Positions 38,866-45,254 of a stretch of 64,000 nt of DNA are shown piece by piece. The stretch's first letter is position 1, and each line of letters begins with the position of its first letter. The translations under genes were made by a program, and so were the position numbers. Source of the DNA: Thermoleophilia bacterium (GTDB taxonomy: Bacteria > Actinomycetota > Thermoleophilia > Miltoncostaeales > Miltoncostaeaceae); the NCBI GenBank assembly GCA_028285405.1, contig JANQPH010000033.1, positions 1 through 64,000 of the forward strand, in the 5' to 3' direction. Under the pieces are notes generated by a model. That model saw nothing but the letters and a program-made list of their open reading frames with translations. It did not search any database and was not told the DNA's origin.

Positions 38866-39576
38866 TCAGCGAGCGTCGCGGTAAAGGGCGGCGAGTCGGT
38901 CCGCCGGAACACCGAGCAGGAACAGGTGGCGAATGGCGATCCAGGTCGCGACGGTGCGCACGATTCCGAGGCGCTGCCAGCGGCGGGCGGAGGTGACGAC
39001 CGGCGACGGGAGGCGTCGCACCCTCCCCCCCTCGCGAAGCCGCCGCGCGAGGTCGTAGTCCTCCATGATCGGGAGTGGTCGGTAGCCGCCCAGGTCGTCG
39101 AACACCTCTCGCCGAATCCAGATCGCCGAGTCGCCGTAGAAGACCCCGAACGCGTTCTGGACGCGGTACACCGCCCCGAGCAGCGCCGAGAAGCCGCCCC
39201 GACCGTCGAAGCGGATCGCGAAGTTGCCACCCCGGGCACCGGCGCCCACGGCCGCCCGTACCGCCGCGGCCGCGCACACGGGCAGCCGCGTGTCGGCGTG
39301 CAGGAAGAGCAGGACGTCTCCGGACGCGACCCGGGCGCCGTGGTTCATCTGAGCCGCCCGCCCCGGCTCGCACTCGGCCACGATCGCGCCGGAGGGATGG
39401 GCGCTCGCCCGGAGCACGGTTTCGTCCGACGAGCCACCGTCGACCACGACCACCTCCTCGATGTCGGCGGCCGCCAGGGAATCGAGCAGGCGGTCGATGA
39501 TCGCCGCCTCGTTCAGGACGGGCACGACCACGCTGACGGCCACCCTGCGCCGGCGCGCGGCGTCAGGGTCGGACAT
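38866..39576 (-). CDS. Family 2 glycosyltransferase, TIGR04283 type
   Basis: 236 residues. GT-A start VSVVVPVLNEAAIIDRLLDS, VVVDGGSSDET, CEPGRAAQMNHGARVASGDV, FLHADTRLP with the metal-binding HAD, and FGVFYGDSAIWIRREVFDDL follow the TIGR04283 subfamily. That subfamily has been annotated as arsenosugar-biosynthesis-related because of its neighbours in other genomes. A basic/hydrophobic C-terminus may touch the membrane. It is the last of three close minus-strand genes with the HTH protein (3 bp away) and the radical SAM fusion. The acceptor sugar is unknown. Confidence 0.88.
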   Translation of the reverse strand: MSDPDAARRRRVAVSVVVPVLNEAAIIDRLLDSLAAADIEEVVVVDGGSSDETVLRASAHPSGAIVAECEPGRAAQMNHGARVASGDVLLFLHADTRLPVCAAAAVRAAVGAGARGGNFAIRFDGRGGFSALLGAVYRVQNAFGVFYGDSAIWIRREVFDDLGGYRPLPIMEDYDLARRLREGGRVRRLPSPVVTSARRWQRLGIVRTVATWIAIRHLFLLGVPADRLAALYRDAR

Positions 39577-39579
39577 GTC

Positions 39580-39849
39580 TCAGGCGTGAGCCTTCGCGGG
39601 CGGAGGCCGCCTGGGCCGAGGCGGGTTGTCGCGCCGCCAGATCGCGCTGACCTGGCTGGCGGTGAGGCCACACAGCCGCCCGAGCTCCCTGGTCGTGACC
39701 CCGGCGCGGATCGCCTCGATGATCGCGCTGTCCCGACGATCGCGAAGCTCGCTCGCAGCCGCCTCCGCGGAGCGGGTCTCGCCCGCGAGCTCGATGGCTC
39801 GCGCGATCGGGTCCTGCTCGGGCAGTGACACGGCGGCGTCCTGGCTCAC
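39580..39849 (-). CDS. Small helix-turn-helix protein
   Basis: 89 residues, GTG start. A clear HTH is seen in the second half: DSAIIEAIRAGVTTRELGRL followed by CGLTASQVSAIWRR. The N-terminal 35 residues are an Ala/Glu-rich helix and the C-terminus is Pro/Arg/Lys-rich. Small actinobacterial proteins of this type occur as solitary DNA-binding modules. Its position between a radical SAM fusion and a glycosyltransferase suggests local control, unproven. Confidence 0.7.
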   Translation of the reverse strand: MSQDAAVSLPEQDPIARAIELAGETRSAEAAASELRDRRDSAIIEAIRAGVTTRELGRLCGLTASQVSAIWRRDNPPRPRRPPPAKAHA

Positions 39850-39891: not shown

Positions 39892-41565
39892 TTACGCGAT
39901 TGCGCACGCGAGCGGTGCGGGCAAGCCGCCGTCGGCGAGGCGATCCTCGAGCACCCGCTCGACGACCAGACGCTTGCCGTCCTCGAGGGCGACGCGACCG
40001 GAAGCGAGCAGGAGGTCCGGGCTCGACTCGACGTCTGCGCCCACCGGGTGCCAGTGCAGGCCATCGGTCGTGACCGTCAGCTCGGGCACCAGGCCGGCCG
40101 CGGTGACCGCCATCCCCTCCGAGCTGAAGCCGCGCGCGACCAGTGGGCGCACCGAGTGGTCACCCTCCCCGATGCCGATGCCGGCGAGCAGCGCCGCCAG
40201 CCGCTCCACCTCGTGTGTGTTCACCGGCGTCTCGGTCGTCGACACCCGCACCCGCAGGCCCAGCGCGCGAGCCCGCTCGATCCCCCTGATCGTTCGCGCG
40301 AAGGAGCCCGCCCCACGAAGGGCGTCGTGCGTCTCGGCGGACGCGCCGTCGAGCGAGGTCTGGATCGTCAGCGCCCGGACTCCGACGAGCGTCTCGAGGT
40401 CTTGCCCGCGGCGCCCCTCGAACAGCATCGCGTTCGTGAGCACGGTCGTCGGGACCCGCTCGGCCGCCGCGCGCAGCATCGCGCCGATGTCCGGCTCCAG
40501 GAACGGCTCGCCCCCGGTCACGAAGATCTCCTCGAAGCCCGCCTCGACCGCCTCGTCGCACAGCTCCACGAAGCGCTCCGCCCCGATCGACCGGCGCCGG
40601 GCTGACGGCGAGGACTCGACGGCGCAGTAGGTGCACGCCAGGTTGCAGTGGAAGTTCGAGTAGATCCAGAGCCGTGCCGGAAAGGCATCGGTGCCGAAGA
40701 GGCTCGTGACCGGGAGGCCGCCGGGCGCGGGCGGGGCCACCCGGTCGGGCTGGGCTCCCGAGGGCAGGGGCACCGCGTCGAGATAGCAGTGGTACCGACC
40801 CCTGGCTCGCTCGGCCGGCGGAACCACCTCGAGACACGTCGTCCACCACCCGGTCTCGGCGGTCACCGCGAAGGCCTCAGGCAGCCCGGCCGCCCGGATC
40901 TCGTCCGCGTGCGCCAATGCGTCGTAGGCGACCGGGATCAGCCCGGCCCGCGCCTCCCCCGCCTCGCAGTCGATGAGCGCGTACCAGCCGGCGGAACTTC
41001 CGTCGTTCGCCGATCGGCCGATCGTGCCGCAGTTGACGACCAGGGTTCCGTCGACCTCCCGCGACCACGGGATGCCTGTGTGGGTGCACACGAGCACGTC
41101 CGCGCCGCTGGCGGCGACCCGCCGGCCACACTCCTCGTCGCCGAGCGACTCCCACAGGAAGTCGTTCACGGCCAGCGGCGAGCCGTGCACCATGTGCACG
41201 TCGACGCCGTCGACCCCCTCGCGCCACTCCAGCGGCAGCGAGCCCATCCAGGCGGCGAACTCCGGCGCGGTTCGGGCGCGGGTGAAGTCGTACATGACCT
41301 GCGCGTAGTGGTTGTCGCGCGGGTCCGAGTAGCCGCAGCCACAGTCGTCGGCACCGGACGCGATCGCCAGGTCGTAGTTGCCCGCGATGCACTCGACGCC
41401 GGCGTCCAGGAGCGGCTGCCACACCGCGTCCGGGTCCGCCCCGAACCCGCCCAGGTCGCCGAGGCAGATCAGCCGCTCGCAACCGCGCGTGCGTGCGTCG
41501 GCGATCGTGGCCCGAAGCGCGCGCGGATTGCTGTACACGCCCCCGAATGCGGCGATGCGCGTCAC
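39892..41565 (-). CDS. Fusion: calcineurin-like phosphoesterase fold + radical SAM domain
   Basis: 557 residues in one uninterrupted frame. Residues 1 to about 245 follow the small metallophosphoesterase fold (ERLICLGDLGGFG, HMVHGSPLAVNDF, LVVNCGTIGR), but the usual metal ligands are changed: the opening DxH reads FGGVYSN, GNHD reads GNYD, GHTH reads THTG, and a DCGCGY cysteine motif is present. Residues from about 290 are radical SAM: C307, C311, C314 (CNLACTYC), VTGGEPFLEP and TIQTSLDGASAETHD. No Cys-rich SPASM tail is seen. GTG 41565 is the only early start. I infer a single bifunctional or regulatory enzyme; substrate unknown. Neighbours are an HTH protein and a TIGR04283 glycosyltransferase. 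Confidence 0.85.
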   Translation of the reverse strand: MTRIAAFGGVYSNPRALRATIADARTRGCERLICLGDLGGFGADPDAVWQPLLDAGVECIAGNYDLAIASGADDCGCGYSDPRDNHYAQVMYDFTRARTAPEFAAWMGSLPLEWREGVDGVDVHMVHGSPLAVNDFLWESLGDEECGRRVAASGADVLVCTHTGIPWSREVDGTLVVNCGTIGRSANDGSSAGWYALIDCEAGEARAGLIPVAYDALAHADEIRAAGLPEAFAVTAETGWWTTCLEVVPPAERARGRYHCYLDAVPLPSGAQPDRVAPPAPGGLPVTSLFGTDAFPARLWIYSNFHCNLACTYCAVESSPSARRRSIGAERFVELCDEAVEAGFEEIFVTGGEPFLEPDIGAMLRAAAERVPTTVLTNAMLFEGRRGQDLETLVGVRALTIQTSLDGASAETHDALRGAGSFARTIRGIERARALGLRVRVSTTETPVNTHEVERLAALLAGIGIGEGDHSVRPLVARGFSSEGMAVTAAGLVPELTVTTDGLHWHPVGADVESSPDLLLASGRVALEDGKRLVVERVLEDRLADGGLPAPLACAIA

Positions 41566-42168: not shown

Positions 42169-43848
42169 ATGGCCGAAGGTGAGCGCTCCGCAAAACCCGT
42201 GCTGCTCGCGGTGGACGACGAGCCGAGCGTCGCCCGCGCGGTGCAGCGGGATCTGCGCCGCAAGTACGGATCCGAGTTCCGCGTGCTCCGGGCCGAGTCG
42301 GGCGCGCAGGCGCTCGAGCTCCTCGGCGAGCTGCGCCGTCGCGCGGAGCCCGTGGCCATGATCATCAGCGACCAGCGGATGCCGGGCATGACCGGCACCG
42401 AGACCCTCGCGAGGGTCAAGGAGCTCCTGCCGAGCGCCAAGCGGGTGCTGCTCACCGCGTACGCCGACACGCAGGCGGCGATCGACGCGATCAACGTCGT
42501 GCGCCTCGACCACTACCTGATGAAGCCGTGGGACCCGCCCGAGGAGGAGCTGTACCCGCTCGTCGACGACCTCCTCGACGACTGGAGCGTCGCGGCCGTG
42601 GTCGACGAGGGCGTCCGCGTCATCGGCCATCGCTACTCGCGCGACTCGCACGCGATGCGCGACTTCCTCGCTCGCAGCTACATCCCGTTCCGCTGGATCG
42701 ACGTCGACGGAGCCGACGGCGACGCCGGCCGGCTGCTCGAGGCCACCGGTCTCGCGACGCCCCAGCTGCCTGTGGTGTTCCTCCCCGATGGTGCCGTGCT
42801 CCAGCAGCCATCGGTCCGCGACGTCGCAGAGGCGGTCGGGATCTCGACGGCGCCGGACGTGCCGTTCTACGACATCGTCGTCGTCGGCGCCGGTCCGGCG
42901 GGGCTCGCGGCCGCCGTCTACGGCGCGTCCGAGGGACTTCGGACCGCGCTCGTCGAGCGCGACGCCCCGGGCGGCCAGGCCGGTCAGAGCTCTCGCATCG
43001 AGAACTACCTGGGGTTCCCGGTCGGACTCTCCGGCGGCGATCTGACGCGGCGCGCGACCTCGCAGGCGCAGCGGTTCGGCGCCGAGCTGGTCAACGTGCG
43101 CGAGGTCGAGGGCATCGAGGAGCGCGGGTCCGCGCGCGTCGTCCGCCTCGCGGGCGGGGACGAGATCCAGGCGCACGCGGTCGTCATCGCGACGGGTGTG
43201 ACGTACCGCCTGCTCGATGCCGCGGGCGTCGAGCAGCTGACGGGTCGGGGCGTCTACTACGGCGGCTCGCGAGCCGAGGCCGCCAGCGTCCGCGACGAGC
43301 CGGTCGTCGTCGTCGGCGGGGCGAACTCCGCCGGCCAGGCGGCCCTCTACTTCGCCGAGTTCGCTGAGCGAGTGAGCATCCTGTGCCGAGGGGACGATCT
43401 GGCGAACAGCATGTCGAGCTACCTCGTCGAGCGGATCGAGGAATCGCCGACGATCGAGGTCCGCACGCAGACCGAGGTCGCCGAAGCGCACGGTGAGGAC
43501 GGCCTGGAGGGAGTCACCCTCGCCCGATCGAGTGACGGCGAGCGCGAGTGGATCCCCGCGAAGGCCATGTTCGTGTTCATCGGCGCACGCCCGAACACCG
43601 ACTGGCTCGACGGGGTCGTCGCCCGCGACGAGCGGGGATTCATCCTGGCCGGACCGGACGCGTTGGCCTCCGAGGCCTCGCCGGCGTGGCCGCTCTCGCG
43701 CGCGCCGCTGCTGCTCGAGACCACGATGCCGGGGGTGTTCGTCGCCGGTGACGTGCGGCACGACTCGATCAAGCGCGTCGCCGCGGCCGTCGGAGACGGG
43801 AGCACCTCGATCCAGCTGGTCCACCAGTACATGGGGACGCTCGAATGA
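42169..43848 (+). CDS. Fused response regulator / thioredoxin-reductase-like flavoprotein lacking CxxC
   Basis: 559 residues, ATG after GAAGGG. Residues 9-130 are a receiver domain with phospho-acceptor D68 (IISDQRMPG), T96 and K119 (LMKPWD). Residues 150-225 look like a glutaredoxin/thioredoxin fold without cysteines (RVIGHRYSRDSHAMRDFLAR). From about 240 comes a thioredoxin-reductase-type flavoprotein: GAGPAGLAAAVYGAS, GGQAGQSSRIENYLGFP, GGANSAGQAALYFAE and a C-terminal FVAGDVRHDSIKRVA. The catalytic CAxC is replaced by YYGGS near 361-365. It thus keeps FAD and NAD(P)H sites but not the disulfide. It overlaps the histidine kinase gene by 4 nt. Fused proteins of this layout are annotated in other genomes, with unknown physiology. 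Confidence 0.9.
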   Translation: MAEGERSAKPVLLAVDDEPSVARAVQRDLRRKYGSEFRVLRAESGAQALELLGELRRRAEPVAMIISDQRMPGMTGTETLARVKELLPSAKRVLLTAYADTQAAIDAINVVRLDHYLMKPWDPPEEELYPLVDDLLDDWSVAAVVDEGVRVIGHRYSRDSHAMRDFLARSYIPFRWIDVDGADGDAGRLLEATGLATPQLPVVFLPDGAVLQQPSVRDVAEAVGISTAPDVPFYDIVVVGAGPAGLAAAVYGASEGLRTALVERDAPGGQAGQSSRIENYLGFPVGLSGGDLTRRATSQAQRFGAELVNVREVEGIEERGSARVVRLAGGDEIQAHAVVIATGVTYRLLDAAGVEQLTGRGVYYGGSRAEAASVRDEPVVVVGGANSAGQAALYFAEFAERVSILCRGDDLANSMSSYLVERIEESPTIEVRTQTEVAEAHGEDGLEGVTLARSSDGEREWIPAKAMFVFIGARPNTDWLDGVVARDERGFILAGPDALASEASPAWPLSRAPLLLETTMPGVFVAGDVRHDSIKRVAAAVGDGSTSIQLVHQYMGTLE

Positions 43849-45254
43849 GCGACGAGCTGCCGGGAGTTCGCGAGGTGCTGTCCACCCTCGACCTGCTCGA
43901 GGGACTGAGCGACGAGGGGCTGGAGCGTGTCGCCGCGGCCGCGTACGAGCGACGGATGGAGCCGGGCGACGTGCTGGTCGAGGAGGGCGACACCGCAAGT
44001 GACCTGAACGTGCTCGTCGACGGGCGGTGGGAATGGTCGCGAGTCCTGGACGGGGAGCGGGTGATCCTCGGCTCGCGCCCGGCGATCACCTACGCGGGCG
44101 CATCCACGCTCCTGACGGGCGAGCCGGCGCTCGGCACCGGCACGGCCATCGAGCCGTGCCTGATCTACGTCATCCCTGGTGAGGAGTTCCGCCGCCTCCT
44201 GCGCGACGAGCCCTCGGTGCTGAAGGCGACGCTCCGGCTGATCGCCCCGGTGCAGCAGACGGCCGCGTCGGTGATCGAGCAGCGTGAGCGACTGCTGTCG
44301 TTGGGAACGCTCTCGGCCGGCCTCGCCCACGAGCTGAACAACCCGGCCGCGGCCGCACGGCGAAGCGCGAAGCGCCTCGCGAGCGCGCTCGCGGTCCTCC
44401 AGGACACCGTGCACCAGTTCGTCTCGAGCGGCATCGAGCGAGAGGAGGCCGAGCAGCTCGTGGCGATGCAGCACGACGCGCTGCGCCGCTACGCCGAGAA
44501 CGGCGGCGGAGCCGGAGGCCTCGACGCCGCGGACCTCGAGGACGAGCTGGGGGAGGCCCTCGAGGAGCTCGGGGTCGAGGACGCCTGGGAGGTGGCACCG
44601 GTCCTCGTCGAGGCGGGCCTCGACCGGGAGTGGCTCGACCTCCTCCAGGAGCGAGCCGGATCGGCGAGCACGGCGGCGGTCGCGTGGGTCGCGGCCTCGC
44701 TCGGTGCCCGGGCGCTCGCCGACGAGCTGGCCGAGGCGACCGAGCACATCTCGAACATCGTCTCGGCGATCCGCGACTACAGCAGGATGGATCGTGCCGC
44801 CGTCGAGGAGATCGACGTGCACGACGGGATCGAGAGCACCCTGACGATCCTCGCTCCGCGCCTGAAGGAGGGCTCGGTCGAGGTCGTCCGCGACTACGGC
44901 GAGGGCGTGCCCCGCATCACGGCGCACGCGGCACAGCTCAACCAGGTGTGGACCAACCTCATCGTCAACGCGATCGATGCCGTGGCCGGCGACGGCACGA
45001 TCCGGATCAGGACGCGCAACCTCGACGACCAGGTGATGGTGTGCGTGGAGGACACCGGGCCCGGGGTGCCCGAGGAGCTGCGCTCGCGGATCTTCGATCC
45101 CTTCTTCACGACCAAGGGGGTCGGCGAGGGAACCGGTCTCGGCCTGGACGTCTCACGGCGGATCGTCGAGGCGCATCGTGGGCAGATCCTGCTCGAGTCG
45201 GAGCCCGGCCGAACCCGCTTCGACGTTCGCCTGCCGCTGGCCATCGACGGCTGA
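43845..45254 (+). CDS. Histidine kinase with N-terminal cyclic-nucleotide-binding domain
   Basis: 469 residues. The first 130 or so form a cNMP-binding-type beta roll (LSDEGLERVAAAAYERRMEP, GDVLVEEGDTASDLNVLVDG). Then comes a dimerisation/phosphoacceptor helix with H162 (SAGLAHELNNPAAA), a long helical insert (about 170-290), and an HATPase with N box NLIVNAID, G1 DTGPGVP, F box FDPFFTTK and G2 GTGLGL. There are no membrane segments, so it is cytoplasmic. ATGA overlap with the flavoprotein-response regulator makes the two a cognate pair. The beta-roll ligand may be a nucleotide or may be degenerate. Confidence 0.92.
   Translation: MSDELPGVREVLSTLDLLEGLSDEGLERVAAAAYERRMEPGDVLVEEGDTASDLNVLVDGRWEWSRVLDGERVILGSRPAITYAGASTLLTGEPALGTGTAIEPCLIYVIPGEEFRRLLRDEPSVLKATLRLIAPVQQTAASVIEQRERLLSLGTLSAGLAHELNNPAAAARRSAKRLASALAVLQDTVHQFVSSGIEREEAEQLVAMQHDALRRYAENGGGAGGLDAADLEDELGEALEELGVEDAWEVAPVLVEAGLDREWLDLLQERAGSASTAAVAWVAASLGARALADELAEATEHISNIVSAIRDYSRMDRAAVEEIDVHDGIESTLTILAPRLKEGSVEVVRDYGEGVPRITAHAAQLNQVWTNLIVNAIDAVAGDGTIRIRTRNLDDQVMVCVEDTGPGVPEELRSRIFDPFFTTKGVGEGTGLGLDVSRRIVEAHRGQILLESEPGRTRFDVRLPLAIDG

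Follow-up and report, generated by a model that had tools for sequence, protein, structure and literature searches.

A single gene in the window, the whole stretch of 64,000 nucleotides of a Thermoleophilia genome that was analysed, encodes a protein in which a Car1-type metallophosphoesterase-fold domain is joined through a linker to a radical SAM core. On balance, we consider it probable that this fusion synthesises organoarsenicals in the manner of ArsS and has a built-in domain for handling arsenic, its arsenic chemistry being what we infer. The gene occupies one open frame with a GTG start at 41565, a stop at 39892 and no internal stops, so that the uninterrupted 557-residue frame reported in an earlier note on this DNA holds. 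The features of the fusion are as follows.

39892..41565, minus strand: fusion gene (557 residues), Car1-type metallophosphoesterase-fold domain, linker and radical SAM core
40861..41565, minus strand: N-half, residues 1–235, metallophosphoesterase fold of the ars-operon (Car1-like) branch
41527..41544, minus strand: G8–N13 (GGVYSN), the DxH site with Asp9 replaced by Gly and His11 by Tyr; G/Y in 77/78 fusions (one row incomplete), D/H in 26/26 stand-alone relatives
41329..41346, minus strand: D74–Y79 (DCGCGY), with invariant Cys75 and Cys77, most likely equivalent to the essential Car1 pair
41074..41088, minus strand: C160–G164 (CTHTG), the GHxH site, first His kept, second lost, Cys160 gained
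40834..40851, minus strand: linker motif GWWTTC, G239–C244, invariant, with Cys244; absent from stand-alone relatives
40027..40683, minus strand: radical SAM core, residues 295–513; CX3CX2C cysteines C307, C311 and C314 at 40624–40647

Both halves were recognised by Pfam, with PF12850 (Metallophos_2) matching residues 15–201 (E 7e-10) and PF04055 (Radical_SAM) residues 306–444 (E 1.7e-22), and the predicted model of the fusion reached a pLDDT of 87.5 and a pTM of 0.84. The motifs read by the earlier note were all found, FGGVYSN at residues 7–13, GNYD at 62–65, DCGCGY at 74–79 and THTG at 161–164, together with the three radical SAM cysteines. A scan of the genome collection returned 80 loci, nearly all of them full-length fusions of 53–66% identity. 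Almost all of these loci belong to Actinomycetota, including Thermoleophilia, Streptomyces, Pseudonocardiales and Catenulispora; contigs from one “Acidobacteriota” metagenome-assembled genome may be mis-binned. In the alignment of 78 fusions (74 distinct loci), the motif set was 97–100% conserved. Pairwise distances within the N-half and within the C-half were correlated (rho 0.72), as inheritance of the fusion as one unit would predict. An assembly artefact or chance joining of frames is ruled out by this correlation and by the more than 70 independent loci. The earlier proposal, a coherent branch whose metal ligands are altered and which is joined to radical SAM, is therefore borne out; the branch is widely conserved, as are FGGVYSN, GNYD and DCGCGY across many genomes.

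Alignment of the 78 fusions with 26 stand-alone relatives allowed us to define which ligands have changed. Positions 9, 11, 160 and 164 are G, Y, C and G in 77–78 of the 78 fusions, versus D, H, F and H in all 26 stand-alone relatives, whereas D37, N63, H127 and H162 are kept in both groups. We take positions 9, 11 and 164 to be the non-bridging ligands of metal 1, with D37 bridging the two metals and N63, H127 and H162 holding metal 2, in line with the standard reading of this fold. On that basis, the metal-1 site appears to have been removed as a unit and the metal-2 site retained. The fusion thus lacks the dinuclear calcineurin-like ligand set (DxH..GD..GNxD..H..GHxH), D9, H11 and H164 having become G, Y and G, and the gained Cys160 sits two residues before the kept His162. 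The earlier note had counted three motifs as altered and DCGCGY as extra; this stands for DxH to GxY and for GHTH to THTG, but GNYD retains its Asn ligand and, like DCGC, also occurs in 26/26 relatives with normal ligands, so only the DxH and GHTH changes are real losses. Nor is DCGCGY an extra motif of the fusion, since Cys75 and Cys77 are present in 78/78 fusions and 26/26 stand-alone relatives alike. The earlier note had coupled normal ligands in stand-alone relatives with a fusion confined to one assembly as counting against its reading; the former proved true (26/26), but the latter fails, given more than 70 loci. In the tree, fusions and stand-alone relatives part with a support of 1.0. 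Fold searches with the N-half retrieved the metallophosphoesterases 3qfm, 1nnw and 3rqz, the nearest being the Ap4A hydrolase SapH (3qfm).

The genomic setting of the stand-alone relatives is markedly arsenic-related. An ArsM, ArsR, ACR3, ArsC, ArsP-like permease or aquaporin gene lies within ~1.5 kb in 26 of the 28 stand-alone loci of the class, and ArsM adjoins a 27th (G069); NCBIfam models confirmed the ArsM, ACR3, ArsC-type, MIP and ArsR identities in example loci. The genome from which the window derives itself holds one such relative on another contig (G000:C16), beside aquaporin, ArsM and ArsR genes. Car1 is reportedly a binuclear metal enzyme. It is an As(V) reductase of Rufibacter tibetensis and has the metallophosphoesterase fold, and an ars-operon metallophosphoesterase ~40% identical to it has Cys74 and Cys76, which are essential for reductase activity (PMC12124457). 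Uncharacterised metallophosphoesterases are also found in Mucilaginibacter ars operons (PMC10652896). The fusion shares with these proteins the fold, GNYD, the metal-2 ligands and a Cys-X-Cys pair at the same place (74/76 in Car1, 75/77 in the fusion). Judged by motif, spacing and numbering, DCGCGY most probably holds the redox Cys pair that marks the Car1-type branch, and the N-half is, on sequence grounds, a descendant of this arsenate-reductase branch, a point that the earlier note missed. The fusion differs from the Car1 type in its incomplete dinuclear site, having lost the metal-1 ligands, in the gained Cys160 and Cys244, and in the attached radical SAM core; moreover, it usually resides outside ars operons, whereas its stand-alone relatives reside inside them. 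The suggestion that the N-half is non-hydrolytic and binds what the radical SAM half consumes or makes is reasonable, but a role in arsenic redox or transfer is more specific and fits better. Because the stand-alone relatives turned out to be ars-operon proteins, we dropped the generic label of non-hydrolytic phosphoesterase.

The C-half conforms to the radical SAM superfamily, with both CX3CX2C and a GGE motif (G351-G352-E353) conserved, and fold searches retrieved SkfB, BlsE and SuiB. Its only conserved cysteines are 307, 311, 314 and 554; a SPASM-type Cys set is absent, in agreement with the earlier description of a core without a SPASM tail. NF049973 (the Rv1681 family) was the best named family in 40/40 members scanned. 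The window protein scores 277.4 bits against it (cut-off 380) and 53.6 bits against ArsS (TIGR04167, cut-off 300); with both scores under the curated cut-offs, membership in either family was rejected. Rv1681-type proteins also differ from the fusion in having no N-domain. Our literature search, partial in coverage, returned nothing useful on Rv1681/MoeX function or on radical SAM combined with metallophosphoesterase. In one locus (L101, 6294–8137, plus strand), an Rv1681-like stand-alone radical SAM gene directly follows a PhnD-like solute-binding protein, with TIGR04282 near; the Rv1681 family may thus be connected with the uptake of oxyanions.

Downstream of the fusion, we identified two further minus-strand genes.

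39580..39849, minus strand: 89-residue HTH-like ORF separating the fusion from the glycosyltransferase gene; no conservation in relatives
38866..39576, minus strand: TIGR04283 “arsenosugar biosynthesis” glycosyltransferase; 217.8 bits versus a cut-off of 182

The 89-residue ORF is probably incidental and was set aside. The glycosyltransferase is the one that the earlier note had recognised, and it is plausible that it shares an operon with the fusion. Genes in related loci were predicted with a simple GC-position caller. In these loci, the fusion is repeatedly accompanied by TIGR04283, TIGR04282, an MTAP-like phosphorylase, a second radical SAM protein and an FAD oxidoreductase, and also by methyltransferases, VTT/TVP38 proteins, an MFS carrier and a mercuric-reductase-like flavoprotein. 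TIGR04282, TIGR04283 and the MTAP-like gene are often closely packed alongside the fusion; the assignment of the two TIGR families to arsenosugar biosynthesis rests on NCBIfam naming. Clear ars genes lie near only ~9/78 fusions, with an ArsM-type gene in seven loci and ACR3 in two more; two of the ArsM-type matches scored 341 bits (arsinothricin ArsM model) and 194 bits (arsenite methyltransferase model).

We surveyed 179 genomes of the class and found the full-length fusion in 12 of them (13 genes), and a C-half-like gene only in two more (G177 and G015). Two genomes of the same family as that of the window (G002 and G004) bear the label Miltoncostaeaceae. TIGR04283 was present in 12/12 fusion genomes versus 6/167 others (p 1e-14), the second radical SAM gene in 12/12 versus 4/167 (p 1e-15), the FAD oxidoreductase family in 10/12 versus 0/167 (p 9e-15) and the MTAP-like phosphorylase, which is not universal, in 8/12 versus 15/167 (p 8e-6), although these p-values are optimistic because the class genomes are related. 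Counted by genus, TIGR04283 and the second radical SAM gene accompany the fusion in all 10 fusion genera (p about 1e-10). In the family of the window, including its own genome (contig C52), the second radical SAM gene lies at another locus than the fusion, so physical linkage does not explain the co-occurrence. The partners that the earlier note proposed to look for, arsenosugar-type ones among them, thus do co-occur. ArsM shows no enrichment (7/12 versus 72/167, p 0.23) and is not supported as a required partner. Hence, of the features of an arsenosugar-type pathway, the TIGR04283 partner is always there, but an ArsM to supply dimethylarsenite is not. ArsS was found above its cut-off in none of the 179 class genomes, which implies that the TIGR04283 glycosyltransferase must rely on a different arsenic-radical enzyme.

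The second radical SAM protein (gene at G000:C52:47689–49047; locus L154, 7672–9045, plus strand) matched PF04055 only weakly and had no NCBIfam match. It carries CX3CX2C and four more invariant cysteines (C51, C291, C421 and C437). No match was found among sequences of solved structures, fold matches were only weak, and the literature searched, with partial coverage, yielded no description of it. Its gene adjoins that of the FAD/NAD(P)-binding oxidoreductase (G000:C52:49067–50254; locus L154, 9065–10255, minus strand) in four of five genomes of the family.

The travelling partner genes point to an undescribed pathway whose products would be arsenic-containing sugars or comparable molecules. 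In the route we propose, C75 and C77, perhaps with C160, would reduce or hold arsenic in the N-half, from which it would pass in trivalent form to the radical SAM half; there, a 5'-deoxyadenosyl or other SAM-derived group would be attached to create a C-As bond. The MTAP-like phosphorylase could then take off adenine, the TIGR04282/TIGR04283 enzymes would glycosylate, and the second radical SAM and FAD enzymes would tailor the product. Because ArsM is not obligatory among the partners, the enzyme may act on inorganic As(III) instead of dimethylarsenite. There is precedent in ArsS, which adenosylates arsenic, and ArsL, which acts on inorganic As(III) (PMC12159101, PMC8552651). We also put forward, tentatively and as a possibility only, a bolder version: a new actinobacterial class of organoarsenicals made from inorganic arsenic, in which one polypeptide would convert arsenate or arsenite directly to a C-As SAM-derived compound without ArsM or ArsS, using a reductase site put to new use, with thiols in place of metal 1; the product would then be elaborated by the second radical SAM protein.

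Could the cluster serve another element? The N-half might bind phosphonate, selenium, antimony or the like, and the cluster make a non-arsenic, glycosylated nucleoside-derived metabolite. PhnD and PhnE genes lie directly 3' of the fusion in four loci, five class genomes have TIGR04283 without a fusion, and the missing ArsM enrichment points the same way. We nevertheless regard this reading as rather unlikely, because the nearest relatives of the N-half are ars-operon proteins, the Cys pair of the N-half matches that of an arsenate reductase, and nine fusion loci do hold ArsM or ACR3 genes. In two genomes with TIGR04283 but no fusion (L143 in G097 and L144 in G067), the gene stands beside DoxX-like proteins, and a TIGR04282-like domain is fused to ~400 further residues.

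Less probable still is that the N-half serves only as an inert scaffold or for dimerisation, having lost catalysis along with metal 1, so that the radical SAM half alone matters. In G177, the C-half stands alone (L149, 3922–4767, minus strand); its contig also carries TIGR04283 and the gene for the second radical SAM protein, and no N-half was found in that genome. This gene represents a natural case in which the fusion was split or lost and indicates that the N-half is not indispensable; yet all 78 fusions keep C75, C77, C160, C244 and every metal-2 ligand unchanged, beyond the needs of a scaffold. Finally, the N-half could still be a phosphoesterase that works with one metal and trims a phosphorylated compound made by the radical SAM half. 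This would agree with the fully kept D37, N63, H127 and H162 and with SapH as the nearest fold, but it is very unlikely, as hydrolysis in this fold normally involves both metals and the DxH His, and the invariant Cys set would go unexplained.

The organoarsenical synthase that we favour resembles several known systems in part. With ArsS, it shares the radical SAM core, the TIGR04283/TIGR04282 glycosyltransferases alongside and often a nucleoside phosphorylase; unlike ArsS, it has an extra N-domain and no obligatory ArsM. In adenosylhopane synthesis, HpnH carries out radical SAM adenosylation and the nucleoside phosphorylase HpnG follows, an order that the proposed route would repeat, although the fusion scores only 56 bits against the HpnH model (cut-off 225) and no hopanoid genes were seen in fusion loci. 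To our knowledge, only a handful of enzymes form C-As bonds in bacteria (ArsM, ArsS, ArsL and BsnM/BsnN). The bisenarsan (bsn) cluster of Streptomyces is likewise an organoarsenical pathway of actinobacteria, but its identity with the fusion cluster was rejected on the grounds of different chemistry, as BsnM/BsnN form the C-As bond without SAM-dependent enzymes (PMC12159101). The fusion and its fixed partner set are conserved from deep-branching soil actinobacteria to Streptomyces. If our reading is correct, a radical SAM enzyme with its own arsenate-reductase-derived domain would open a new way into soil organoarsenicals, the rebuilding of a metallophosphoesterase site into a metalloid-handling site would be documented, and the orphan Rv1681 radical SAM family would gain a testable hypothesis.

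On the plus strand of the window, positions 42169–45254 hold a gene that joins a response-regulator domain to a thioredoxin-reductase-like flavoprotein, with a histidine kinase gene after it; because the radical SAM fusion is close to dnaE instead in two relatives, this cassette may be an insertion.
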